Below, in pieces: positions 3,850 through 47,471 of a stretch of 47,656 nt of DNA (positions within the stretch are counted from its first letter, which is position 1; each line of letters opens with the position of its first letter). The position numbers and the translations under genes are program-made. Under the pieces are notes generated by a model. It searched no databases, had not been told where the DNA came from, and saw only the letters and a program-made list of their open reading frames with translations. Source of the stretch: Candidatus Poribacteria bacterium (lineage in GTDB: Bacteria; Poribacteria; WGA-4E; WGA-3G); NCBI GenBank assembly GCA_022827225.1, contig JAJDTJ010000031.1, positions 1-47,656 on the forward strand, written 5' to 3'.

Positions 3850-4608
3850 CTAATAAGGAGACATCAGTCCTTCTGCGCCCGGTATCGGTTTTCGCTCAAA
3901 TTCCGGTGTAATCCACCTTTCACCTGGGTCTTTTCCTGGTTTATAATATCCATAAACGACTGTCCATCTGGTGTCACTCTCTTGTTTTCTTGGGGTTACA
4001 GCATGTGCGGCATGCGTCCACATCAGGACAACCGTTCCTGGCGGTACCGATAACGGTTCAATTGCTAACGGTTCGCCGGTATCGGGATGGGTTTTTCCTA
4101 CCAACCAACCTTCTCGTAGTGCTTCATCTGTTGCCGCCTGAATTTTGGGATCGCGGTATAGATGACTACCGGGAACCGCCTTCAAACTGCCATCATCCGC
4201 CTCGAATCCATTAACATAGAAGAAGATACGGACAAAACCGTAGCGCGGATCGTCTTCAGCGTATGCGTGGCTATGCCATCCGGCACCATTATTGCCGCCT
4301 GGACGATTGAGGCTAACGCAGTGGTCATAACGTATCTCTTCCCCAAGCACTTCACGTGCGAGTTTAAGCATTTGAGGGTGTCCGATCAGACTTTCGAGAT
4401 AACTATCGTACTCCGCAGCAAATCGGTTCGGTTCATACCCTTTTTGGCAACCCGGTATAAGCGATTCAACCCGAGCCAGCGATTCTATCAATCGTGCTTG
4501 AGCGTTGATGGTAAGAAGTTTAGGCAGCACAAAATGGCCAACATGATCTAATTCTTTGCGCTCTTGATCTCCAAAAGTATAATCATGAAAAATCGAGTTT
4601 TGTGGCAT
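3850..4608 (-). CDS. PhyH (phytanoyl-CoA dioxygenase) family protein, paralogue A
   Basis: 252 residues with the PhyH-type jelly-roll pattern: SLNRPGG, then GWHSHAYAEDD (His112, His114), GFVRIFFYVNGFE, VPGSHLYRD and, near the C-terminus, MWTHAAHAV with Arg214 twelve residues after His202. The family uses Fe(II) and 2-oxoglutarate with an HxD...H triad; here the first part reads HSH rather than HxD. No signal peptide. It is a near-complete duplicate of the next gene upstream (same length, same start MPQ.., same end GAEGLMS.Y), separated by only 10 bases. The pair is thus a tandem duplication and surely co-transcribed. The substrate is unknown, and oxygenase activity should not be assumed because of the altered motif. 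Confidence 0.85.
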   Translation of the reverse strand: MPQNSIFHDYTFGDQERKELDHVGHFVLPKLLTINAQARLIESLARVESLIPGCQKGYEPNRFAAEYDSYLESLIGHPQMLKLAREVLGEEIRYDHCVSLNRPGGNNGAGWHSHAYAEDDPRYGFVRIFFYVNGFEADDGSLKAVPGSHLYRDPKIQAATDEALREGWLVGKTHPDTGEPLAIEPLSVPPGTVVLMWTHAAHAVTPRKQESDTRWTVVYGYYKPGKDPGERWITPEFERKPIPGAEGLMSPY

Positions 4609-4618
4609 AAAAACTCCT

Positions 4619-5377
4619 TTAATAGAGAGACATTAACCCTTCTGCTCCCGGTATCGGTTTTCGCTCAAATTCAGGCGTAATCCAACGGGCACCGGACGGT
4701 CTGCCGGGGTTCCGATAGGCATAGACCACACACCACCGCGTATCGCTATCCGGTTTTCTTGGTGACACGGCGTGTGCGGCATGCGTCCACATCAACGCGA
4801 CGGTGCCAGCGGGTGCAGATAGTGCCTCAATTTCAAGAGGTTCTCCCGTCTCTGGGTGCTTTCTTCCAACGAGCCAACCTTCGCGCAGTGCTTCGTCTGT
4901 TCCGGCATGGATCCTTGCATCCCGATAGAGATGGCTTCCCGGAACCGCCTTCAGACCGCCATCATCGGGTTCAAATCCGTTGACATAGAAGAAGATACGG
5001 ACGAACCCTAAACTCGGGTTGTCATCTGAATATCCGTGGCTATGCCAGCCGATGCCACCGTTACCGCCCGGACGATTGAGACTCACGCAATGATCGTATC
5101 GGATATCTTCACCGAGGACCTTCCGGGCAAGTTCAAGCATCTGCGGATGTGCGATGATGCTTTCGAGGTAGTTATCATATTCCGCTGAGAATCGGTTCGG
5201 TTCATGCCCTTCCGTTGACGTGCGCGAGAGTTCGTGGATATGTGAGAGGGAGCGTGTTAGGTTCGCCTGTGCTTCTGGTGTAAGTAAACCGGGTAAAACA
5301 AAATGTCCGTCCCGATCCATTTTTTTTCCCGCCGCTTCACCAAATGTGTACGGATGAAAAATAGGAGGTTGTGGCAT
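4619..5377 (-). CDS. PhyH (phytanoyl-CoA dioxygenase) family protein, paralogue B
   Basis: 252 residues, colinear with paralogue A over the whole length. Large identical blocks include the region around residues 84-106, the WHSH element (111-114), the RIFFYVNGFE core and the C-terminal PEFERKPIPGAEGLM segment. As in A, the expected HxD reads His112-Ser-His114; the distal His202 and Arg214 positions are conserved. The difference between the copies is concentrated at residues 14-60, suggesting divergence of a lid or recognition surface. Start ATG at 5377 has GGAG upstream. It is the first gene of a two-gene tandem, with a TATGCTATACA extended -10 element and a 17-base palindrome about 55-80 bases upstream. 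Confidence 0.85.
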   Translation of the reverse strand: MPQPPIFHPYTFGEAAGKKMDRDGHFVLPGLLTPEAQANLTRSLSHIHELSRTSTEGHEPNRFSAEYDNYLESIIAHPQMLELARKVLGEDIRYDHCVSLNRPGGNGGIGWHSHGYSDDNPSLGFVRIFFYVNGFEPDDGGLKAVPGSHLYRDARIHAGTDEALREGWLVGRKHPETGEPLEIEALSAPAGTVALMWTHAAHAVSPRKPDSDTRWCVVYAYRNPGRPSGARWITPEFERKPIPGAEGLMSLY

Positions 5378-34825: not shown

Positions 34826-37800
34826 CTAGTCTCTAGTCTCAGATTCAACATGTTCCGCATCATTAGATGCCTCTTCTGTTTGGTTCTCGTCGGATACCTC
34901 TAAACTTTGGAAATCTGAGAACCCACTGCCTGCCGGGATGAGACGTCCGAGGATGACGTTTTCTTTCAGCCCGAAGAGTTTGTCGGTTTGTCCGCTAACA
35001 GCGGCATCCGTTAGTACTTTCGTTGTCTGTTGGAAGGATGCAGCAGAGATAAAACTATCTGTGCTTAAGGATGCTTTACTAATACTCTGGAGGACCGGTT
35101 CCCCGGTTGCGGATACGCCGTCTTTCTCCAGAATTTCGCTGTTGACGCGTTGAAACTCTCTGCGATGTACTTCGTCATTCGGGTAGAAGTGTGTATCGCC
35201 TGGACTGATAACACGGACTTTGGTCAGCATCTGTCGGACGATGACTTCGACGTGTTTATCGTTGATAATGCTTTTGCCGTAGACCTTCTGTACTTCATCG
35301 ACGAGATATGCCCACACCGCTTCTTCGCCTTCAATGGGTACACCTTCAATGGTGACGCGTCCGATACTCAAGATATCGTGGGGGTTAAGGAACCCGTTGG
35401 TGAGTTGTTCGCCTGCGTCTACCCAATCGCCTTCGGCAATGAGTCGTTTTTCATCAGGAATCTGATAGAGTCTGCTTTCGTATCCTTCGTGCTCAATGCG
35501 ATATGTAGGTACACCGCTCTTGGTGCCGGCGGATCGGACGAATCCCTCGATTTCTGCGATCTGAGCGGCCTCGCCGCGTTTTAGACGACGCGCTTCAAAG
35601 AGATCGGTAACACGTGGGATACCGGCAACGATATCCAGGTTGGCTGTTCGTTCATGGAGTTCTGCGAGTGCTTCACCCTTACGGACGGTATCACCTTCTG
35701 CCAAAGAGAAGGAGTAGTCAGCCGGGATCACATGCGGTATTCGAGTGCCGTCATCGGTTTCTACTTCGATTCGCATTTGAAGGTCTAACTCGTCCACTTC
35801 AAATCCTTGGAATTGCGCTTGAGCGTCCTGATACTCTTCGTCTGACAATTCATCGTCAACAGCATAGTTGCAATTCGGATGGTAGACAGCGGTTACTGTA
35901 TGGGTAATCCGTTTGTTCGCTTTTTCCAAGGCACGATATTCCTTCGACAGGAGTTCCGTGCCTGGTTCAAGTGGGTTTTCAATTTCACGTTTATCTTCAA
36001 CGACACGAAAGATCAGTTCGGTGTCAAACCCTTTGAACTTGCGATTGTAAGCCTTGTAATCCTTGTCGGACAGTTCGGTGCCTGCCTCCAATTCTTGTTG
36101 GAGTTCGGGGTGATGGACACTTGCAACATGGTAACGACTCACTACTTTATTTCGGAGGGTGCTATCGGTTTTCAGGAGTGCTTTATACTCCGCTTCAGTG
36201 AGGCGTTGACCGGCGGTTACCGTTGTGGTGCCGTCCTCTACATTTGTCACTTCATAATGCCGTGAGACTTCCATCCCCTTGTATTGTCGGCGTTTCGCGT
36301 TTGTCTCTTGCTGTGTTAGAAGTTCACCCTCTTTTAATGGGCAATCTTCATGGTTAACGGCAGTTATACGGTACATGCGATCTACTTTAAAGCTGCCGAG
36401 TGTGTTTTCCTCTGTAGAAGTTGTGAACCCACGGTACTTCTCTTGATCTTTTTTTGCTTCAGTTTCACCGAGCAGGTCCCCCGGTTTAATTGGGCAGTCT
36501 GGATGATAGACTTGCGTTACGCGGTGCCTTAGTTTTTGTGCGTCGAACCCTGTAAACCGTTTATGTGCGCGGTCTAACGCTTCTTCGGTAATCTCTTCAC
36601 CCGGCGTAAGCGGGCATTCTGGATGATGGACGGCAGTTACAATGTATCGTTCAACATCATGTTTCTCGACTTTAAATGCGCGCTCAAGGTGCTGATACTG
36701 CTGCCGTGCGTCCTCGAATTCACGTGCCGTTAGTACCTGTTCAACCGAAAAATCATCGACATCCGTATGGACAACATAGACAGGCTTTGCTTCGAGTTCA
36801 AACGGTGTCAGCCACGGTGTGATGTCTTCCGTTGACACTTCTTCGCCGACTTGATATGGGAAGGATTTATCTGTTTTCTCGGTGATACGGTAAACGCGTT
36901 CCGCTCTGAAGTCAGCATCTTGATCGGTTTCGGGATCATCTTCGTTCTCTTGATCTCTGATGTCGGTTGCTATTGTGCTCTCGCCGTCGGAAGCCAAAAT
37001 AGCGTCCATTGCAGCGTCAGCGTAGTGCCATTCACCGTCAAACCCTTGGCGAATTTCGTCTTTCTTCTGTTCCGCCTCTTCTTCGGTAAGGAGATCATCG
37101 ACTGCCACCGAGATTTTCGGATGTTGCACTTCTGTTACCCGGAATTTCGGGGTTACAAACCGTTGGAACCCGTATACGACTAATGCCCGATTGTACTCTG
37201 CTTGTGATAGTTGTTGCCCTACTGTGAGTTTACACTCGCTGTCGAGAACTTCGGTGACTTCATACTGCCAAGCTTTGGTATCAAAACCTTTATAGCGTTC
37301 TGCGTTTTCGCTATACTGTTTTTCACTGAGGCGTTCACCCTCACGGAGTTGACATTCAGGGTGGTTGACCTGTTGGACTTTGTAAGCGGGTCCGTCAAGG
37401 TTCGTTCGATTTTCAAGTACGATCCATAGGTCACCTTCTCTTTTGACGGTTTGTCCATCTTGGAAATCTCGGAACCGTACGGTGCCGGCGGCTTTAGAGA
37501 GAATTCTGTGTGGACTGGCTTCCGAAACATCTTCAACTGCTCCGCCGGTGTGGAATGTCCGCATTGTGAGCTGCGTTCCCGGTTCACCGATGGATTGCGC
37601 GGCGATGATGCCGATGGCTTCACCGACATTCACGAGGCTATTCGTTGTTAAGTCGTTCCCATAACATTTTGCACAGACCCCGTCATCGGCTTGGCAGGTG
37701 AGGACCGAACGGACGTTGACTATCTTTATATCGAGTTTATCAATCTGTTCTGCCATCTGTGCGGAAATGACCTCGTTGGCAGGGACGAGTACATCACCGT

Positions 37801-40582
37801 TCTCTGGGTGGCGTATGTCTTGGGCAGTTGTGCGTCCGCTGATTTTAAAGGTAAGGTCTCCACCGGCTGTCGCGAACTTCTGGATGCTGTTAAGCGTGCC
37901 GCAATCTTCAAAGGTAACACGAACATCTTGGGCGACATCTACAAGTCTTCGGGTTAGATAGCCTGAAGACGCTGTTTTCAGTGCTGTGTCGACCAACCCT
38001 TTACGGGATCCGTAAGTAGAGTTGAAATAGTCGAGTACATCCAATCCTTCTCGATAAGAAGAAAAATATTCATTATCGGTAGATGTCCCGATGGGTGGGA
38101 TGAGGATGTTGCCGTCCTGTTTCGCCTTGAGTCCGATAAATGCACTGATCTGCATAAAGGGATTTTTCCGTGCCCGTGCGCCACTATCGGCCATGATATG
38201 TACTGGGCTGAATCCTTTCACGGTTTTATCAGCGATCTCTGTGCCATCACGGTTAACTTTAGGATGGACTTTGCGAGGGTCGCCGCGTTCAACGAGCGGT
38301 GTCTCCTCTAGGTCAGGTAAAGTCTCAAACATCTTTTCTTCTATTTGCGCCATGGCATCGAACCAGATACGGATCTGTTCGTTTTCGTGTTCTTCTCGGT
38401 CGGTTGTCTCCGCAGTTTCAAGTAGGGAAGCAATTTTTGACTTTGCTTCATCCACCAATGCGTCCCGGTTGTCAGGTGTAATATAATCCTTGATACCGGG
38501 TGAGATACCGCTCAGCGTGGCGTACTCGAAAGCGAGTTTTTGTACGTTCTCAAGTACGTCAACGGTAACACCTGTTCCGAGTTCATTAAAGCATCGATGG
38601 ATGAGCGTGGAGAGTGCGCGTCCACCGGCTTCCGCGTTGTAGAACGGAATAACTTGTTCTGAGTGTTCATCTTCCCAGTCTAATTTTGGCTCTCCATTTT
38701 CCTTTTTCGGCAGTACTTCATTAAAGATAACTCTACCGACCGTAGTGAGGATAGGCTCGGTTGGGTCCCCGTTTTCGCTATGTCCGTTGGATTTACAGAA
38801 GAGCTGGATACTATCGTGCAGCTTAAGTTGACCGGCGACATGCGCGGTGATAACATCTTCTGTATGGGAGTATCGGCGGCGATACCAAGATTTCTCACGA
38901 ATTTCATTAAAAAGAGAGGTATCACGCGTCGTGTATGCCTCGTGTAAAAGAGCGGCATCTTCAGGGTGCTCAGGTAGTGTCTTGGTCAAGAAGCTGGGGC
39001 CAAGCACCATATCGAGTTCTGGGACGGCAATAGGGTCACCGTGCGAGGGTTTCAGGATGTTATGGCTACTAAGCATGAGCAGTTTTGCTTCGGTTTGTGC
39101 TTCTACTGTCAGGGGTACGTGTACTGCCATCTGGTCGCCATCAAAATCGGCGTTGAAGGCCTTACAGACGAGTGGCGGGATCCTGATGGATTTACCTTCG
39201 ACCAATACAGGTAAAAACGCTTGGATGCCGAGTCGATGCAATGTCGGGGGACGGTTGAGTAGAACTGGGTGATCCGCGATAACTTCCTCTACGACATCCC
39301 AGACGGGCGAATCAGAGTCGACGTGTTCGGCGATGTGTTTTGCTCGCTTAATGGTCTGTGTATAACCGTAAGCCTGAAGTCGTTCAATGATAAAGGGTTT
39401 AAACAGTTCGACTGCCATCTGTTTCGGGATACCGCATTGATGTAATCCCAGTTCAGGTCCGACGACAATGACGCTACGTCCGGAGTAGTCAACACGTTTA
39501 CCGAGTAGGTTCTGTCGAAACCGCCCAATTTTCCCTTTAAGTACTTCAGCGAGAGATTTGAGGGGTCGATTACCGGGTCCGGTGACACGTCTTCCATGTC
39601 TTCCGTTGTCGAAGAAGGCATCAACGGCTTCTTGTAACATCCGTTTTTCATTTCGCAGGATGACCTCTGGTGACCGGAGTTGTATAAGTTTCCGGAGTCG
39701 GTTATTCCGATTGATAACTCGGCGATATAAGTCGTTGAGATCGCTGGTAGCGAAGCGTCCGCCTTCAAGTGGGACGAGGGGTCGTAAATCGGGTGGAATT
39801 ACGGGGATGACATCAAGGATCATCCACTCGGGTCGTTGTTCAGCGGCGGCAAAATCTGACATCTGCTTTAGCTGCTTGAAGGTTTTAAGCCGCTTTTGTT
39901 GGCTTGTGGTCTCTTCGAGTTCTTGGGTTAACTCTTTGATTTTTTCTTCGAGGTCGATATTACTGAGAATCTCTCGAATGACTTCAGCACCTGTCCCGGC
40001 GCGAAAACCGCCCCAGTGTTTATTGCTGTGCTCGACGTATTCGACCTCGGTTAACACTTGTCCGACTTCAAGTGAACATTCTGGGTCGGTTACCTCAACA
40101 ACAATAAAGCCTTCAAAATAGAGGACCCGTTCAACATCACGCGTGGAGAGTCCGCAGAAGAGACCGATACGCGATGGCAATCCCTTGAAGTACCATATAT
40201 GGGAGACGGGTGCGGCGAGTTGAATATAGCCGAGGCGGTCCCGACGGACGCGTTGCTGTGTGATCTCAACGCCGCATCGGTCGCATATCACACCTTTATG
40301 TTTAATCCGTTTGTATTTGCCGCAGTTACACTCCCAATCCTTTTGGGGTCCGAAGATAGCCTCACAAAAAAGGCCTTCGGGTTCTGGTCGAAAGGATCGG
40401 TAGTTAATAGTCTCTGCCTTCTTGACTTCGCCGCAGCTGCATGTGCCTCTCTCTGGGCAGTTAAAGGCTCCGTCAGTAGCGTCAGCAGGTTTCCGATATT
40501 TGCAGCTGGTTTGCTTTGCCGCATCTTTTATCTCTTCAGGCGAGGCTATCTTTATGGAGATGCTGTCAAATGCCGTGTTCAT
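34826..40582 (-). CDS. rpoC: RNA polymerase beta' subunit, expanded (1918 residues) by a repeat array in the trigger-loop insert
   Basis: All core elements are intact: zinc ribbon Cys85-x-Cys87...Cys100-x2-Cys103, catalytic NADFDGD (Asp479/481/483), second zinc site Cys894/963/970/973, trigger helix GEPGTQLTMRTFHTGG (999-1014), and the C-terminal clamp with KASLSTDSFISAASFQ. The usual beta' is ~1200-1400 residues. The excess lies mainly at 1066-1600, within the insert between the two trigger helices (the place of E. coli SI3). The flanking TVRFRDFQDGQTV (1034-1046) and the segment around 1602-1640 still resemble SI3 sandwich-barrel strands. The insert holds about 12 copies of a ~40-residue repeat also present in RpoB. 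ATG 40582 has AGGAGA upstream. Unlike many genomes, no rpsL follows. Confidence 0.98.
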   Translation of the reverse strand: MNTAFDSISIKIASPEEIKDAAKQTSCKYRKPADATDGAFNCPERGTCSCGEVKKAETINYRSFRPEPEGLFCEAIFGPQKDWECNCGKYKRIKHKGVICDRCGVEITQQRVRRDRLGYIQLAAPVSHIWYFKGLPSRIGLFCGLSTRDVERVLYFEGFIVVEVTDPECSLEVGQVLTEVEYVEHSNKHWGGFRAGTGAEVIREILSNIDLEEKIKELTQELEETTSQQKRLKTFKQLKQMSDFAAAEQRPEWMILDVIPVIPPDLRPLVPLEGGRFATSDLNDLYRRVINRNNRLRKLIQLRSPEVILRNEKRMLQEAVDAFFDNGRHGRRVTGPGNRPLKSLAEVLKGKIGRFRQNLLGKRVDYSGRSVIVVGPELGLHQCGIPKQMAVELFKPFIIERLQAYGYTQTIKRAKHIAEHVDSDSPVWDVVEEVIADHPVLLNRPPTLHRLGIQAFLPVLVEGKSIRIPPLVCKAFNADFDGDQMAVHVPLTVEAQTEAKLLMLSSHNILKPSHGDPIAVPELDMVLGPSFLTKTLPEHPEDAALLHEAYTTRDTSLFNEIREKSWYRRRYSHTEDVITAHVAGQLKLHDSIQLFCKSNGHSENGDPTEPILTTVGRVIFNEVLPKKENGEPKLDWEDEHSEQVIPFYNAEAGGRALSTLIHRCFNELGTGVTVDVLENVQKLAFEYATLSGISPGIKDYITPDNRDALVDEAKSKIASLLETAETTDREEHENEQIRIWFDAMAQIEEKMFETLPDLEETPLVERGDPRKVHPKVNRDGTEIADKTVKGFSPVHIMADSGARARKNPFMQISAFIGLKAKQDGNILIPPIGTSTDNEYFSSYREGLDVLDYFNSTYGSRKGLVDTALKTASSGYLTRRLVDVAQDVRVTFEDCGTLNSIQKFATAGGDLTFKISGRTTAQDIRHPENGDVLVPANEVISAQMAEQIDKLDIKIVNVRSVLTCQADDGVCAKCYGNDLTTNSLVNVGEAIGIIAAQSIGEPGTQLTMRTFHTGGAVEDVSEASPHRILSKAAGTVRFRDFQDGQTVKREGDLWIVLENRTNLDGPAYKVQQVNHPECQLREGERLSEKQYSENAERYKGFDTKAWQYEVTEVLDSECKLTVGQQLSQAEYNRALVVYGFQRFVTPKFRVTEVQHPKISVAVDDLLTEEEAEQKKDEIRQGFDGEWHYADAAMDAILASDGESTIATDIRDQENEDDPETDQDADFRAERVYRITEKTDKSFPYQVGEEVSTEDITPWLTPFELEAKPVYVVHTDVDDFSVEQVLTAREFEDARQQYQHLERAFKVEKHDVERYIVTAVHHPECPLTPGEEITEEALDRAHKRFTGFDAQKLRHRVTQVYHPDCPIKPGDLLGETEAKKDQEKYRGFTTSTEENTLGSFKVDRMYRITAVNHEDCPLKEGELLTQQETNAKRRQYKGMEVSRHYEVTNVEDGTTTVTAGQRLTEAEYKALLKTDSTLRNKVVSRYHVASVHHPELQQELEAGTELSDKDYKAYNRKFKGFDTELIFRVVEDKREIENPLEPGTELLSKEYRALEKANKRITHTVTAVYHPNCNYAVDDELSDEEYQDAQAQFQGFEVDELDLQMRIEVETDDGTRIPHVIPADYSFSLAEGDTVRKGEALAELHERTANLDIVAGIPRVTDLFEARRLKRGEAAQIAEIEGFVRSAGTKSGVPTYRIEHEGYESRLYQIPDEKRLIAEGDWVDAGEQLTNGFLNPHDILSIGRVTIEGVPIEGEEAVWAYLVDEVQKVYGKSIINDKHVEVIVRQMLTKVRVISPGDTHFYPNDEVHRREFQRVNSEILEKDGVSATGEPVLQSISKASLSTDSFISAASFQQTTKVLTDAAVSGQTDKLFGLKENVILGRLIPAGSGFSDFQSLEVSDENQTEEASNDAEHVESETRD
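35783..37387 (-). repeat. Array of ~12 protein repeats inside RpoC trigger-loop insert
   Basis: Residues 1066-1600 of RpoC. Units of 36-44 residues follow the pattern VTxVxHPxCPLxxGxxL, then [ST]-x-x-E-[YA] and a Y-x-G-F end. The clearest copies start near residues 1067, 1106, 1147, 1310, 1351, 1402, 1441, 1482 and 1560. Two divergent units (1229-1309) follow an acidic linker at 1200-1226. One Cys per unit is common but not universal. The DNA copies are diverged, so this array looks older than the one in rpoB. Confidence 0.85.
39992..40111 (-). other. Native single copy of the repeat module in RpoC N-terminal region
   Basis: Residues ~158-197 of RpoC (EVTDPECSLEVGQVLTEVEY, then GGFRAG) occupy the place where ordinary beta' subunits have a related segment after VLYFE (E. 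coli: QQILTEEQY followed by EFDAKMGAEAI, from memory). It matches the amplified repeat at the DPEC-L-x2-GQ-x-LTE-x-EY positions, so it is the best candidate for the source of the repeats. Confidence 0.65.
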
Positions 40583-40599
40583 CAGGTCTCCTTTTTTGG

Positions 40600-40690
40600 G
40601 GCTGTCGGCTGTCGGCTATCAGCCGTCAGTAACAAGAGGTTTCTGATTAGCAGAAAATCTCTTTGCTGACTGCTGACTGCTGACTGCTGA
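40600..40690. repeat. CTGACTG-type intergenic repeat between rpoB and rpoC
   Basis: The 118-base gap holds GGCTGTC twice, the palindrome CGGCTATCAGCCG, and then three tandem TGCTGAC heptamers plus TGCTGA (40664-40690). Related pieces lie at 3798-3831, 13586-13603 and 28084-28100. Confidence 0.8.
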
Positions 40691-40700
40691 TTTCTAAGTG

Positions 40701-43700
40701 TTATTCTTCATCTTGGTCGAGGGATACATGGAGTCCGAGAGTTTGGAGTTCGCGAACTAATACTTTGAAAGATTCCGGTGTTCCTGGTGGTTCTGGGTTT
40801 AGTCCCTTGACAACCGATTCATAGATTTCTCTTCTACCGAGTACATCATCGGATTTAAGCGTAAGCATTTCTTGGAGCGTGTGCGCTGCTCCGTAAGCTT
40901 CCAATGCCCAAACTTCCATTTCACCGAGTCGTTGCCCACCGTGCTGTGCCTTACCTCCGAGCGGTTGTTGTGTGACGAGGGAATAAGGTCCGGTGGAGCG
41001 GGCATGCATCTTGTCTGCGACAAGGTGGTTCAACTTGAGGAAATAGACATATCCGACTGTTATTTCTTGTGCAAAGGGTTCCCCGGTTCTACCGTCAAAA
41101 AGTATGCTTTTACCGGTCTCTTTGCTCCGTGCGGGTAGTTCGGTTTCAGCAAGCATTTTGAAGACTTCGGCTTCGGTTGCGCCATCAAATACAGGGGATT
41201 CGACGCGCCTACTGAGCTCGTGGCACGCCCATCCGAGGTGAATTTCGAGTATCTGCCCGACATTCATACGAGATGGCACGCCTAACGGATTCAATACCAA
41301 CTCGACGGGTGTGCCGTCTGGCATGTATGGCATATCCTCAGCCGGTAAGATTTTGGCAACAACGCCTTTGTTGCCGTAGCGTCCTGCCATTTTATCACCG
41401 ACAGAGATGGGGCGTTTGCTGGCGACATAGACTTTGACGCGCTTGATAACACCCGGTTTGAGTTCGTCGCCCATCTCCAATTGCTGAAGCGCCTGTTCTT
41501 TTTCTTCAGTATAAGCGGTTATCCGCCCCTGTGCCATTTCTTCGATGCGTTGAATGTGTTCTCGGACCTCAGTATCGGTAACGCGGATGTCCGAAAAAGA
41601 CAAACTACACTCTTTAAGTGCTTTCTGATAGTCAGCGTCAGAAACATGTTCGCCGACCGATAGTGGAGATTTCGGGTCGAAAACAGCGGTAATATGCCAA
41701 ACGCTTTCGATTTTTAGGTCTTTGACAGTTTTGCTGAGTTCGTCTTTCTCTTCTGCGGTCAGTCGCTGTCCTGCAGATACTGGGTGTGCTGGAAAATCGC
41801 TACACGCCTTTTGATAATCGGCATCGGAAAGTTTTTGTCCGGATGTTAAGGGACACGTCGGATCAAAGACCTCCTTAATTTCCCAAAATGGGTCTGCCTG
41901 TAAATCGGGGTAAATTTCACTGAAATTCTCCCATTCAACTTCAGAAAATTCTTCATCTTCAACGAATGGACATCCGGCAGCTTCCAATTGCGTGAGAACA
42001 GATTGTTCAAATTCTGGTCGAGTTTGGCTCTTTAATTCAGCGTCGTCGCCGAGTTCATAGAATTCCCAATTATCGGGTTCGAGGTCGTCTGTCAAGAGCA
42101 CGCCGAATCGTGCATCCGCTGCAGCGAGTGCTTCCTTGAGATGCTCGGTATCCGATTCATCTGTATCACCTTCATCGTCAGTGTGTGCCTCCGGACGTAA
42201 AGCGATTGTAACGGGCCTGCGATCCGCACCGAGCAGTGAAATACCGGTGTGTGCTACTTGTTCACTCGTCGTTATATCTTCTGGCAGATTGATTTCGGTA
42301 TTTCCCAAGAGCGGTTCACAAACGCCTTGAAAATATTCCTGTACTGCGGTGAAAAGCCCCGGTGTTGAAGCTTCGGATATTCCGATCTCTTCAAAATCAA
42401 GGTCCTCAGATTCGTCGTTATCGGGGTCTACCGTTCTGTCAGCTGAAGCATCTGGTGTGTACAGTGCTACCGTCGGAATTGGTTCAGGAGCACTCGTGAC
42501 CTTGTAGCGTTGTTCGGCAATGAAGGCTTCGGCAGCAGTATCTTCGGTTATCGTGTAGTACTCTTCTGCGATAGCGCCGGCGATATAAGCGTCCAGGATC
42601 TCTGCAATCAGTGTATCACCAGCATTCGCGAGGGGTTCGGAGTTTCCGACGCCTAAAAGTGGATCTGTGAGTTCACATCCTATGAGGGTATTACGAATTT
42701 CTTCGACTTTTCGACGGCGGATTGAAGCGGTTTGTTGTCGCCAGGTTTCGTCAATTTGCTTACGTTTGGATTCAAATCGCAATTCGTCAGCCATCGATGC
42801 CCCGGAGTCTGTTTGCCAGTTGCTGCGTCGTTGTGCGCCATCGGGTTTACGTGAAAAAACCTTTACATCAATAACGACGCCTTCAACGCCTGGACGAACG
42901 TAAGTGGATGCATCCCGTACGTCTTTAACCTTTTCGCCGAAGATCGCTTGTAGGAGTTTCTGTTCGGGTCCATACTCGCTTTCACCCTTTGGTGTGATTT
43001 TTCCGACAAGGATGCTACCGGCTTTAACAACACTGCCGACGCGGATAATCCCTTCTTCGTCGAGTTGGCTGAGTCGCCTTTCGCTGACGTTTGGGATGTC
43101 GCGTGTGATTTCTTCTGGCCCGACCTTCGTTTCGCGCGCCTCTACCTCAAATTCCTCAATGTGGATGGAGGTGAAGGTATCCTCTTTGATAAGCGTTTCG
43201 CTGATAAGGATAGAGTCTTCATAGTTGTGTCCACCCCACGGCATATAAGCGCAGAGGATGTTCCTGCCGAGTGCGAGTTCTCCATCTTCGGTAGAGGTGC
43301 CGTCAGCGATAACTTGTTCAGCTTTGACGTTGTCTCCGACTGCGACGATTGGACGTTGATGGATACAGGTACCGCTGTTACTCCGCTTGAATGTTTGAAG
43401 TTTGTAGACATCGTATCCCATTTCGCTAAAGGTGTTTTCGCCTTCATCGTGATGGAGTGCTTCGCCTGTATAGATAAGGATTTCATCAGCCGAAACACTT
43501 GTGACGGTTCCTGCTCGCTTTGCTGTGATGAGTGCGCCCGAATACCGTGCTGCGGGTCCTTCCATGCCGGTTCCGACAAGCGGTGCTTCTGGGCGGATCA
43601 GCGGAACGGCTTGGCGTTGGTGGTTTGCGCCCATCAAGGCGCGATTTGCGTCTTCGTGTTCAAGAAATGGGACGAGTGCTGCGGAAATACCGACAATCTG

Positions 43701-46700
43701 CTGCGGTGCGACGCCGATGTAATCAATCTTTTCCATCGGCAGGGAGAGTACCTCTTCACCACTGCGGACAGGTAGCAGGTGTCCTGAGGCATCGGAATCA
43801 CCGTTTTGTTCGACGTTGCGCGGTGTCGCCTTCGCTGCGATATGAGCGGAGTCCTCACCATCCGCTGTGAGGTATTCAACATCTACTAAAGGGGAACCGT
43901 TTTCGACCTTATGATACGGTGTCTCTATAAAACCGTAAGGGTTTATGCGTCCATAGCAGGCGAGGGATACGATGAGTCCGATTGAGGGACCTTCTGGCGT
44001 TTCCAATGGGCAGACGCGCCCGTAGTGTGTGCGGTGTACGTCCCGAACGGCGGCAGTTGCTCTATCGCGATGGAGTCCACCTGGGCCGATTGCTGAGATA
44101 CGACGCTTGTGGGTTAATTCATCGAGTGGATTAATTTGTTGCATGAACTGCGAAAGTTGGTTTGAACCGAAAAATTCGCGAAGTGCCATCATAAGCGGTT
44201 TCGGGTTTACGAGAGAAGACGGTACAACGTTCGCTAAATCGTTGTTCGTGCTCAACCGTTCGCGCGTGGTTCTGCGAATTTGGAGTAGCCCCATTCTGAA
44301 TTGGTTCTCCAGGAGTTCACCGATAACGCGCACGCGTCGGTTCCCGAGGTGGTCAAGATCGTCTTTCGGTTTAAGACCGTTATGTACTTTGAGGAGATAA
44401 TCTACCGTAGCGGCAATATCTTCTGGGCGGAGCGTACGCACCGTCTCAGGCACTGTTTTATCTTCCTCATATGCCTTCTTGTATTCGTCATCCGAGAGTA
44501 AATCTCCAACCTTAAATGGACACCTTGAGTGAAAAACTTCAGTAACACGCCGAACTGGATATCCGGGATAGTCTTCGCGTGCTTGTTTGTATTCGGCATC
44601 AGAGAGTTCCTCGTCAACCTGGAATGGACAGTCTGAATGGAAAACTTCAGTAACACGCCAAATGGGTTCGGTTTCTAAGTCTTTCCATGTTTTACGATAA
44701 TCCTCTAATTCCGCCCTAGTGAGTTTACCGCCCTCCTTCGCTGGACATCCGGGATAGTCTGTGCGTGCCTTCTTGTATTCGTCATCCGAGAGTAAATCTC
44801 CAACCTTAAATCGACACTTTGAATGAAAAACTTGGGTAACACGCCAAACTGGTTCGGTTTCTAAGTCTTTCCACGTTTTACGGTGCCGATCCAACTCGTC
44901 TTGAGTGAGCATATCACCTTTTAAAGGACGCGAGGATTCTTTCGCTTGTAAAACCATCTTTTCAGCAAATTCATCAGCATCCACCTGACTGGGCAGCTCT
45001 GAACCCACCCTCTCCCAAAAAGACCACTTCTCAGGATCAGAACTCGAAGCTATTATCCCGAATCGTGTATCGGTTGCACAGAGCAATGAATTTAAGACAG
45101 CTTTATTGCTTGCTCCATCCCTAGTTTCCACAATCGCAATATAACGACCATCGCGGCCTTGAAGCAGGAAATCCGCTTTTTCCTTGTTCGCTTTTTCCTT
45201 CTGGGTGTTAATCCAAATTTCTTTATTGGTATCCGGATTACATTCCCAGTTTTGCTTCAGAAGAGGCGAGAAATAATCCTCAACAGAAGTCTGAAGATCA
45301 GATCCCGGAGATGTTGACTTAACCTTTTGAACTATCTGCTTAAGACTTTCATCATCGTTTTTAAATTCTAAAGCCGCGTCAGGCAAATTATAATCACGCT
45401 CGTTTATCTTTGTCTCAAAGTGATCACGATCAATTTCACGAAACTTGTAGTGCCGTAGGTTTTCATAAAAAACCCAATCATCCCGATCTAGGCTATTGGC
45501 AAATATTCCAAACCGCGTATTAGTCGCAGAAAGATAGGCGAACAACTGGCGACGTCCGTAGTTTGCTCCATCTGTTCCTTTGCATTCTGCAATAGCAATA
45601 CGCTTTCCTTCTTTGAGCGAATATAGGTCAACATCTAGCTTAGCATTCACATTGCCTATCTTTATCGCTTGTTCAACACTAGCTTTGAAGCCATCAACAT
45701 CATGAAGTGATTCAAAATATTTCTTAACTTTTGCTTTAACGTCATCTTCTTTAGCCCGTTCTGGAACTCTTCGAGGCTTATCGAGGATTTCTAAAGAATT
45801 TGATCGCTCCGGTCCGTTCACTACTTTATGTTGTTCAACAGCAGTTAAACCTTCACGGACTGGCTTTGTCACTTCGTAACTGTTTTCAACAGCAGTTAAA
45901 CCTTCACGGACTGGCTCTGTCACCTTGTAACTGTTTTCAACAGCAGTGAAACTTGGGGGCGGCTCATAAATAGGCACATCCGTAAATTTCCGATTAAGTT
46001 TATATCTCCCGACGACACCGAGATCGTATCGGTGTGCGTCAAAAAGCAGCCATGTAAGGTGTTTACGAGCATTCTCTATGCTGGGTGCATCGCCGGGTCT
46101 CAAGGTGCGGAAAATTGTAAGGAGTGCGGCATCTTGTAGGTTGTGTTGTGAATCGTAATCGGCTTGTCGGTCGCGTTCCAAGGTATTCCGCAAAAATACG
46201 ATATGCCGGCAGTCTTCTTCATCGAGCACTGTAATTGCTTCAACGCCGGCCTCTTTGAGGCGTTCCAACTCGGTTTCGGTGAGGAGCGTATTCGCTGTAA
46301 GGAGTACTTCTTCGGTTTCTTGATGGACGATGTCTTCGGCGCAGACGCGATCCTGCCCATCATCAGGGATGATCTGTTCAGCGGTGAACGCTTTTTTTCC
46401 GTAGCGGGCGCGCGCCGCTTCATATTCGGAGTTCGTTAGTATCTGCCCGACAGTGAATTCACATCCACTATTGTGAGTATCAATGACCCGTTGGAAGAGT
46501 TCAGTTTCAAACCCCTTCCATTTTCTGCGGTGGTTTGTGCGTTCTTTATAGTTCAGTTCTTGTCCGACTTCAAGTGGACACTCTTTCTCGGTTACTTTCG
46601 TAACACGATAATACTTCTCGACCTCGATATCTGGATAGTCTTTCTTCGCCTGTCGGAATTCTGCAGCGTTTAGTAAATCGCCGGGTTTAACCTGTATTGC

Positions 46701-47471
46701 TGGGCCTTCAACGGATGTGACTTTCCATCCAGCGAGCACGAGCTGTTCCGTCTTCGCATAGAGTTGGAGAATGTCGGCATCTGTCTGCCAGCCGAGTGCG
46801 CGGAGTAGTACTGTAGCTGGCAATTTTCTGCGTTTGTCGATGCGGACATATATTTGGTCCTTGGTATCTATTTCAAATTCAACCCAGGCACCTCGATAAG
46901 GGATGATTTGTGCTGTCGGTGTCCGTCTTCCTGTCGGTAACGATTTTTCGAGGAAAATGACGCCCGGTGAGCGGTGCAGCTGGCTCACGATCACACGTTC
47001 ACTACCATTGACAATAAAACTACCGTTCTCTGTCATTAATGGTATTTCACCAAGATAGACATCCGATTCTCGGATATCTACGACGTGCGGTTCGTCTGCA
47101 TCTGGGTCCGCTTCGCGCAGGACCATCATAATACGTGCTGTGAGGGATACTTGATACGTTACACCGCGCGCGATGCACTCTTGTAAAGTATATTTCGGTG
47201 TGCCGAGTGTGTAATTGACGAATTCGAGGCTGTTGGTATCGGAAAAATCGCGAATGCCACTTTTAATGCCTTTCTCCTTATCTTCTTCCGGAAATATTTC
47301 CCTAAATACGGCTTGGAGTCCTGTATCTGTCCGGTCGTTCGGTGAGACATTTCGCTGTAAAAAGGCATCATACGAAAGTTTTTGCGTTTCTATAAGATTC
47401 GGGAGCTCTGTCCGAATCGGTGTTTTGGCAAATGATATCCTCTCGTTTTTCTGGCTGGGTTGTTTGTTCAC
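40701..47471 (-). CDS. rpoB: RNA polymerase beta subunit, expanded (2256 residues) with repeat and nuclease-like insertions
   Basis: GTG start at 47471 with AGGGGGA nine bases upstream. Core elements are all present: rifampicin-pocket region [11 protein letters not shown]...[12 protein letters not shown] (1100-1132), [16 protein letters not shown] (1151-1166), [13 protein letters not shown] (2025-2037) and the C-terminal [20 protein letters not shown]. Three insertions account for the extra ~1000 residues: A at ~243-385, B at ~500-1007 (between GRYKLNRKF and [15 protein letters not shown]) and C at ~1598-1965 (the place of E. coli SI2, between the coiled-coil EEIRNTL and EHIQRIEEM). A, B and C carry the ~40-residue repeat; B and C also carry HsdR-like domains. 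rpoC follows after 118 bases. Confidence 0.98.
   Translation of the reverse strand: [2256 protein letters not shown]
41607..41978 (-). repeat. RpoB insertion C repeat units
   Basis: RpoB residues ~1832-1955: a partial unit [20 protein letters not shown], then [20 protein letters not shown] and [20 protein letters not shown], each followed by SDADYQKA. The order nuclease-like domain then repeats is the same as in insertion B. Confidence 0.78.
41982..42362 (-). other. HsdR-like domain, copy 3 (motif lost), inside RpoB insertion C
   Basis: RpoB residues ~1704-1830, homologous to copies 1 and 2: [14 protein letters not shown] at the start, then [20 protein letters not shown] and a final PEFEQSVL helix. 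The ExK strand reads [10 protein letters not shown], so the catalytic residues are gone. Base composition is like the host core, suggesting an older copy. Confidence 0.55.
44463..44924 (-). repeat. RpoB insertion B repeat array with near-identical DNA units
   Basis: RpoB residues ~850-1003. Three strong units begin [36 protein letters not shown] and [18 protein letters not shown], interleaved with the shorter helix [12 protein letters not shown] / [12 protein letters not shown]. A 46-base stretch is identical at 44472-44517 and 44766-44811, 294 bases (98 codons) apart. Confidence 0.88.
44943..45308 (-). other. HsdR-like domain, copy 2 (degenerate motif), inside RpoB
   Basis: RpoB residues ~722-843, colinear with copy 1: [30 protein letters not shown], then [13 protein letters not shown] and WSFWERV. 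The motif reads Asp767...Glu782-Thr-Arg784, with Arg in place of the catalytic Lys. Confidence 0.65.
45402..45752 (-). other. HsdR-like PD-(D/E)xK domain, copy 1, inside RpoB
   Basis: RpoB residues ~574-690. [20 protein letters not shown] followed by Lys631 gives Asp615...Glu629-x-Lys631, the complete PD-(D/E)xK signature in the context seen at the N-terminus of type I restriction HsdR. RQLFAYL and [19 protein letters not shown] match the Q-x3-Y and I-x-T-N-G/W-x-F-Y elements of that family. Sample 60-base lines here count at 33-37% GC against 57% in a sampled core line. Confidence 0.7.
45819..45947 (-). repeat. 51-base tandem repeat within rpoB (17-residue units)
   Basis: Residues 509-551 of RpoB: two near-identical 17-residue units [17 protein letters not shown] and [17 protein letters not shown], then a partial third beginning TAVEQHKV. 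The DNA copies differ at only a few bases, so the duplication is recent. The array sits at the start of insertion B. Confidence 0.85.
46377..46736 (-). repeat. RpoB insertion A: three repeat units
   Basis: RpoB residues ~246-365 hold three units: [39 protein letters not shown] and [20 protein letters not shown], each followed by a charged helix and, in the second, WKGFETE. The array sits between the LLRALGW segment and the native [20 protein letters not shown] strand. Confidence 0.8.

Follow-up and report, generated by a model that had tools for sequence, protein, structure and literature searches.

The two large RNA polymerase subunits of one Poribacteria family carry many copies of a unit of about 40 residues that, judging from profile comparisons, is likely not foreign and derives from the polymerase's own β′ small left claw (sLC) domain. 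The explanation favoured here, with roughly even confidence, is that the units are copies of β′ sLC (bD2) amplified in this family, likely in SI3 first and afterwards in β SI1 and SI2, and that the nuclease-bearing form of the array is a homing-like, in-frame, unspliced cassette of rpoB and rpoC; on sequence grounds, such cassettes would be mobile and their nucleases active. The window, that is, the whole stretch of DNA analysed, comprises 47,656 nucleotides from a Candidatus Poribacteria bacterium (genome G000), in which rpoC and rpoB adjoin each other in unbroken frames. Its relevant features are as follows.

34826..40582, minus strand: rpoC, RNA polymerase β′ subunit, 1918 aa (intact frame and Pfam domains)
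35789..37384, minus strand: array of sLC-type units inside the SI3 (β′ i6) SBHM domain, RpoC aa 1067-1598; 9 units of at least 10 bits and 3 weak ones
39992..40108, minus strand: β′ core sLC (bD2) domain, RpoC aa 159-197; a single copy common to sister families and the likely parent of the repeat
40701..47471, minus strand: rpoB, RNA polymerase β subunit, 2256 aa, GTG start (intact frame and Pfam domains)
41607..42587, minus strand: β SI2 (β i9) insert, RpoB aa 1629-1955; decayed HSDR_N-like stretch and 2 units of at least 10 bits; 291-331 aa in 33/33 aligned RpoBs of the genus
44448..45965, minus strand: β site-2 insert, RpoB aa 503-1008 (E. coli β ~414); GC3 0.36; among 33 aligned RpoBs of the genus, in G000 only
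44454..44918, minus strand: five sLC-type units, two of them half units, closing the site-2 insert, RpoB aa 852-1006
44922..45296, minus strand: HSDR_N-like domain 2, RpoB aa ~726-850; retains the Glu and has Arg in place of the catalytic Lys (6/6 aligned copies)
45402..45761, minus strand: HSDR_N-like PD-(D/E)XK domain 1, RpoB aa ~571-690; D613, E629 and K631 in invariant columns (15/15 aligned relatives)
46350..46730, minus strand: β SI1 (β i4) insert, RpoB aa 248-374; 3 units; 127-141 aa in 33/33 aligned RpoBs of the genus

Standard RNA polymerase Pfam domains flank the inserts of both subunits on either side, bearing out the protein lengths and intact core described in a sequence-only reading of this DNA; these are in-frame β and β′ inserts restricted to one lineage around an intact core, and hence lineage-specific RNA polymerase insertions. 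The same reading counted about 22 copies of the repeat at four sites. One repeat family, shared by both subunits at four in-frame sites, stands, and the count becomes 19 clear units at the insertion sites plus one in the β′ core. Profile A2, built from units only (16 rows, no core row), finds 10 units in RpoB and 10 in RpoC, core copy included, at 10 bits or more, together with five weaker stretches of 0.8 to 6.4 bits; none of 200 shuffled versions of RpoB and RpoC reaches 10 bits with A2, the top score being 3.2 bits. Profile A1, which includes the β′ core row, gives 22 matches at E<=1 in a search of the window's own genome, all of them inside rpoB and rpoC. In a structure prediction for the SI3 array, the model shows regular strand-strand-helix units. 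A comparison with the E. coli SI1-SI3 boundaries, proposed in the earlier reading, places three of the sites at β SI1, β SI2 and β′ SI3 and the fourth at about residue 414 of E. coli β. The description of all four sites as repeats holds for SI1, SI2 and SI3 but not for site 2, which is not mainly repeats and consists of two restriction-endonuclease-like (HSDR_N-like) domains followed by five units. These endonuclease-like domains had been overlooked, as had the restriction of site 2 to G000 among the genomes aligned.

The parentage of the unit is indicated by profile comparisons. In the parts of PMC11515920 available, sLC is described as an insertional domain of about 40 residues in bacterial β′, bD2, with bD7 as its homologue. 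Alignment with hhalign of A2 to A5, a core-segment profile made from E. coli and 14 of the 19 outgroup RpoCs (omitting G037, G040 and G042, which have long extra loops, and G047 and G057), gives a probability of 98.2 and an E value of 4.6e-14. In a control with 117 blocks of outgroup RpoB and RpoC (G037, G040 and G042 omitted), the bD2 block comes out on top (E 1.3e-13), blocks that overlap it take second and third place, and bD7, at a position assigned in this analysis, follows fourth and fifth with low probability. With A2 at 10 bits or more, 12 of the 19 outgroup RpoCs yield exactly one match, which falls at the core site wherever a position was listed; the remaining 7 yield none, nor do any of the 18 outgroup RpoBs. 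A PDB search with the unit profile at E<=3 returns 11 matches, of which 8 are β′ residues 141-190, each weak (E 0.27-0.68), and the unit motif HPxCPLxxGxxL resembles the DPxCPLxxKQLLTEEEY found in core copies of sister families. Because the unit profile ties to the β′ core sLC domain, the repeat is likely the polymerase's own; the earlier picture of an invading repeat family gives way accordingly, since the unit does not look foreign.

Two other origins of the unit are less well supported. For BBM2/BEAN modules as the parent, the block of the β SI1 region, at a position assigned in this analysis, has a probability of 6 and ranks sixth of 117, against 98 for bD2. A genome-wide repeat that struck rpoB and rpoC by chance is at odds with the near-confinement of matches to these genes in 15 genomes: 22/22, 97/101 and 118/119 matches lie in rpoB or rpoC in sets of 1, 6 and 8 genomes. 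Of the five matches elsewhere, three fall in a single free gene of G009, and G004 and G025 each contribute one from a second rpoC-like gene.

The profile search of Poribacteria and their relatives that the earlier reading had proposed finds unit arrays (at least 7 matches) in 55 of the 58 genomes searched from the family, and 0 or 1 match, with no array, in all 26 searched from the rest of the phylum; every one of six named contigs bearing a related SI3 array belongs to Poribacteria. SI3 arrays occur in three genera, SI1 units in two and genus-wide SI2 inserts in one, a distribution that suggests gain at β′ SI3, then at β SI1 and then at β SI2. The objection that close relatives might lack the inserts, raised in advance by the sequence-only reading, applies at one site: three of the four are filled in congeners, and site 2 is empty, with 5 aa in place of RpoB aa 503-1008, in 32 of 32 aligned congener RpoBs. 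The RpoBs of G014, G022 and G034, incomplete or not found, are outside the 33 aligned, and L082, L083, L089-L091 and a short G027 piece were left out of the RpoB and RpoC alignments. At the SI1 columns, G036 is longer by 131 residues, which contain no unit; these probably represent frame ahead of the start codon and were not treated as an array.

A second, shorter RpoC-like protein is encoded in G004 (L090:2811-6032, 1073 aa), G012 (L091) and G025 (G025:C127). It is hit once by the unit profile, at its core sLC, and carries no array; in G004 it looks catalytically dead, as GSDCDNN is aligned to the NADFDGD of the window's RpoC. Frames of 1024-1104 aa that weakly match RpoC residues 361-542, possibly another polymerase-like protein, are present in ten genomes of the order (G036, G038, G039, G041, G043 and G045-G049). 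The RpoC of G027 (L058) is split into two frames of 1409 and 529 aa. Elsewhere in the window, positions 3850-5377 hold two neighbouring, similar ORFs of 252 aa, which we take to be phytanoyl-CoA dioxygenase-like.

The site-2 insert of G000, known from a single assembly, has a GC3 of 0.36 against 0.47-0.50 in core segments. The D…ExK motif of its domain 1 is intact. Pfam HSDR_N_2 matches this domain at E 0.0074 and 16.8 bits, under the cut-off of 25, and the top Foldseek match of its model (pLDDT 77) is 3ijm (probability 1.00, E 0.011), with restriction-endonuclease-like folds ranked first and none at E<=0.001. A PADLOC search with the insert alone gives no match at E<=0.1. No target duplication is seen at site 2, the only site that was read at the DNA level.

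Relatives of this insert also exist outside RNA polymerase. Proteins P0001-P0004 (680-879 aa) are 46-48% identical to the G000 insert across 95-97% of it and continue, by eye, with a hydrophobic stretch and a coiled-coil-like region after the insert-like part, with TPR repeats too in P0001 and P0003; P0003 is nearly identical to a G009 frame. In 29 other congeners, the matches to P0002 at E<=1e-20 are RpoB or partial. No free donor gene with units is found at E<=1 in the window's own genome, where the HSDR_N match outside rpoB (C21) lacks units. In a tree of units, short sequences with weak resolution, those of young inserts, SI2 and free proteins fall largely together, and those of SI1, SI3 and the core group mostly by position. 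In the free genes L144 (G009), L146, L147, L148 and L150, an HSDR_N-like domain is fused to segments of coiled-coil-like, TPR-like or membrane type. PADLOC matches of P0002, P0008 and P0014 were set aside because they lie in coiled-coil-like parts, apart from one weak match (PDC-S02, E 0.0071) in the HSDR_N region of P0014.

Six further RpoB or RpoC proteins carry an endonuclease domain, in all six with adjoining units of at least 10 bits. MTES_1575 (PF18741) is found in the RpoC inserts of G002 (E 1e-19, 70.8 bits), G026 (6e-24, 84.4 bits) and G077 (8e-23, 80.8 bits), over the cut-off of 38.2. The RpoB inserts of P0032, P0033 and G076 match PADLOC models of ZorE2-type HNH nucleases in the HNH part of the models only (E 1.9e-13, 7.5e-14 and 1.4e-19, respectively), and score 16.8, 19.1 and 13.0 bits with Pfam HNH, below its cut-off of 21.4. 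The position that we take, from the HNH motif, to be that of the Asn is occupied by Asp, Asp and His in these three inserts, and by Asp in 6, Asn in 1 and Val in 1 of 8 free relatives read in the genus. In SI2, which is old and genus-wide, the catalytic Glu of the HSDR_N-like stretch is replaced in 31 of 31 aligned copies (35 tried; G001, G013, G027 and G028 omitted, motif not found). Large young inserts with no recognised nuclease are those in RpoB of G018 (two units) and in RpoC of G019, P0034 and P0035 at the core sLC site, the enlarged array in RpoC of G003, and a coiled-coil-like RpoC insert of 449 aa in G080 that matches neither units nor nucleases. In all, 13 large young inserts were noted, 7 of them with a nuclease-type domain from one of three families; the sample is biased towards related inserts, as P0032-P0036 were discovered in a search with that of G000. 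The β loop at about E. coli residue 600 has been occupied twice, by the insert of G018 and, at almost the same position (570 and 576 in outgroup numbering), by that of G076, which belongs to a different genus. In a sister genus, the RpoCs L195 (G077) and L198 (G080) are enlarged to 2276 and 2304 aa. Short N-terminal repeats, similar by eye, were rejected as a mark of all cassettes: their profile does not rise above 100 shuffles in G076, G002 or G026, is barely over shuffles in G077 (0.8 vs 0.5 bits), and for SI2 is above them in G021 and not in G004.

The site-2 inserts of G000, P0032 and P0033 lie in three clades of the RpoB tree, each among empty relatives; the exact placement of P0033 is weakly supported (0.46), yet it falls outside the other two supported clades. 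This pattern requires three gains, or one gain and seven losses (five losses with weak nodes collapsed). Between P0032 and P0033, the site-2 insert is 70% identical, SI2 58% and SI1 73%, and the G000 site-2 units, at 52-57%, are not clearly over SI2. Because site-2 identity exceeds that of SI2 but not that of SI1, identity alone leaves transfer unproven, and a single old gain followed by losses would also account for it. The clearer lateral signal comes from the β′ core-site inserts of G019 and P0034, which belong to different clades: these are 73% identical, against 58% for SI3, and require two gains against five losses. G013, G020 and G027, whose RpoCs are incomplete, were left out of the RpoC tree. 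In the left flank, G019 and P0034 agree at 49 of 50 residues, against 43-45 of 50 with their own clades, and share three residues unique to the pair among the 18 sequences compared. The runner-up among 45 cross-clade pairs reaches 48 of 50, so that the outstanding feature is the distance of G019 and P0034 from their own kin. P0035 has a different insert at the β′ core site (35% identical) and keeps the flank residues of its own clade. From these few residues, the G019/P0034 insert looks to have moved between clades with a converted left flank. At site 2, no flank co-conversion is seen at the protein level for the nuclease-bearing inserts, and the best lateral signal belongs to an insert with no recognised nuclease domain.

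In the favoured explanation, self-folding sLC copies on the polymerase surface would be tolerated, and unit cassettes carrying an endonuclease domain would enter permissive loops of rpoB and rpoC in frame. The insert nuclease would cut the empty allele, and repair would copy the insert, which would remain in the protein, unspliced. Precise loss would be rare because the gene is essential; after fixation, the nuclease would decay and the units would stay behind. The observations favour movement by recombination in general over strict homing through the insert's own nuclease, and different nuclease families at one site are unlike what is expected from a single homing lineage. The fuller proposal, of a class of homing elements in the two largest RNA polymerase genes that place endonuclease cassettes there with no need of splicing by virtue of self-folding sLC copies, spread between species, swap nucleases (HSDR_N, HNH, MTES_1575) and decay to leave arrays that enlarge the polymerase, is tentative and falls short of even confidence.

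Ordinary domain shuffling would attribute the inserts to unequal recombination among similar repeats and free genes at permissive surface loops, with the nucleases accidental and no element-driven mobility. Array units can evidently multiply in place, as in the enlarged RpoC array of G003; the free G009 gene is a 49% match to the G000 insert, and the laterally placed G019/P0034 insert is among those with no recognised nuclease. This account is nevertheless unlikely, as it leaves unexplained both the recurrence of nuclease-type domains in the young inserts and the near-confinement of the units to rpoB and rpoC.

A selected fusion is somewhat more doubtful. Here, a defence nuclease tethered to RNA polymerase would cut foreign or stalled DNA during transcription and, like other defence genes, turn over quickly. 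The domains do come from families used in defence (HSDR_N of type I restriction, ZorE2-type HNH and MTES_1575), all three of which have free relatives in the same genus; the D…ExK motif is retained in G000, and P0032 and P0033 have a site-2 HNH insert in common. Against this, the remaining five nuclease inserts each occur in a single genome, the sole genus-wide copy, in SI2, is the one without its catalytic Glu, and the G000 insert alone draws no PADLOC match. Assembly error or post-translational removal as inteins is very improbable: the G000 insert is known from one assembly, but related inserts occupy the same site in the RpoBs of P0032 and P0033, whose contigs measure 0.92 and 1.06 Mb, the frames are intact, the arrays recur throughout most of the family, and, in keeping with the sequence-only reading, no intein family, and no Hint or splicing family in Pfam, matches RpoB, RpoC, P0032 or P0033 at E<=1.

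The proposed amplification of sLC, with homing-like cassettes as one form of the array, bears on how polymerase insertions arise. Most accounts of insertions in bacterial RNA polymerase present them as ancient and shared by a whole lineage. In this family, a likely parent domain, arrays, species-specific inserts with intact-looking endonuclease domains and empty sites in close relatives are found side by side, and the origin of polymerase insertions becomes directly testable. The arrays have not been met in the open literature: among the matches listed, there is no description of such arrays in both RNA polymerase subunits, of endonuclease domains within RNA polymerase, or of Poribacteria RNA polymerase, and the main text of PMC11515920 mentions neither Poribacteria nor a nuclease.

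Several elements of the system are known already, namely lineage-specific inserts, modules shared by β and β′, and rare sLC insertions. The first statement made about this DNA, that no description was known of a shared repeat expanding at several β and β′ insertion sites together, needs correcting in this respect: the accessible parts of PMC2939025 describe BBM1/BBM2 modules of β and β′, with 1-6 tandem BBM2 repeats at β i4, and those of PMC11515920 describe BEAN, HABAS and sLC insertions at many β and β′ sites, including rare β′ variants with sLC insertions. The sLC of β′-bD2/bD7 (CATH 3.30.60.280) resembles the present unit of about 40 residues by profile comparison; relative to what those parts of PMC11515920 report, the Poribacteria proteins differ in having 19 clear extra copies, in arrays, at four sites and in both subunits, some joined to endonuclease-type domains. 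The BBM2 repeats of β i4/SI1 and BEAN are likewise tandem modules in a lineage-specific β insert, with a module named for both subunits in the sections seen of these two papers, but the unit profile matches bD2 much more closely than it does the best β block of that region. In E. coli and cyanobacterial SI3 (β′ i6), the insertion is of SBHM/HABAS type, whereas growth here is by sLC-type units and not by copies of SBHM. The nuclease families matched by the insert domains, Zorya type II ZorE HNH, MTES_1575 and HSDR_N, are here found inside RNA polymerase subunits.

Inteins with homing endonucleases offer a further parallel, being patchily distributed in-frame inserts that bring an endonuclease-type domain into an essential, conserved gene; the Poribacteria inserts differ in having no intein domain and would stay in the protein. 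The nearest case found of homing without splicing is that of the WHO elements of yeasts, which, in the portions of PMC7282813 available, are homing elements of a host gene that dispense with protein splicing and are set apart from two self-splicing classes, inteins and intron-encoded elements. WHO elements lie downstream of FBA1 and replace its 3′ end, whereas the Poribacteria insert, for which homing is the proposed mode of spread, sits in the middle of the coding sequence and is translated as part of it. Should the cassettes prove mobile, a homing element that is unspliced and protein-resident would join the two self-splicing classes distinguished in that account.
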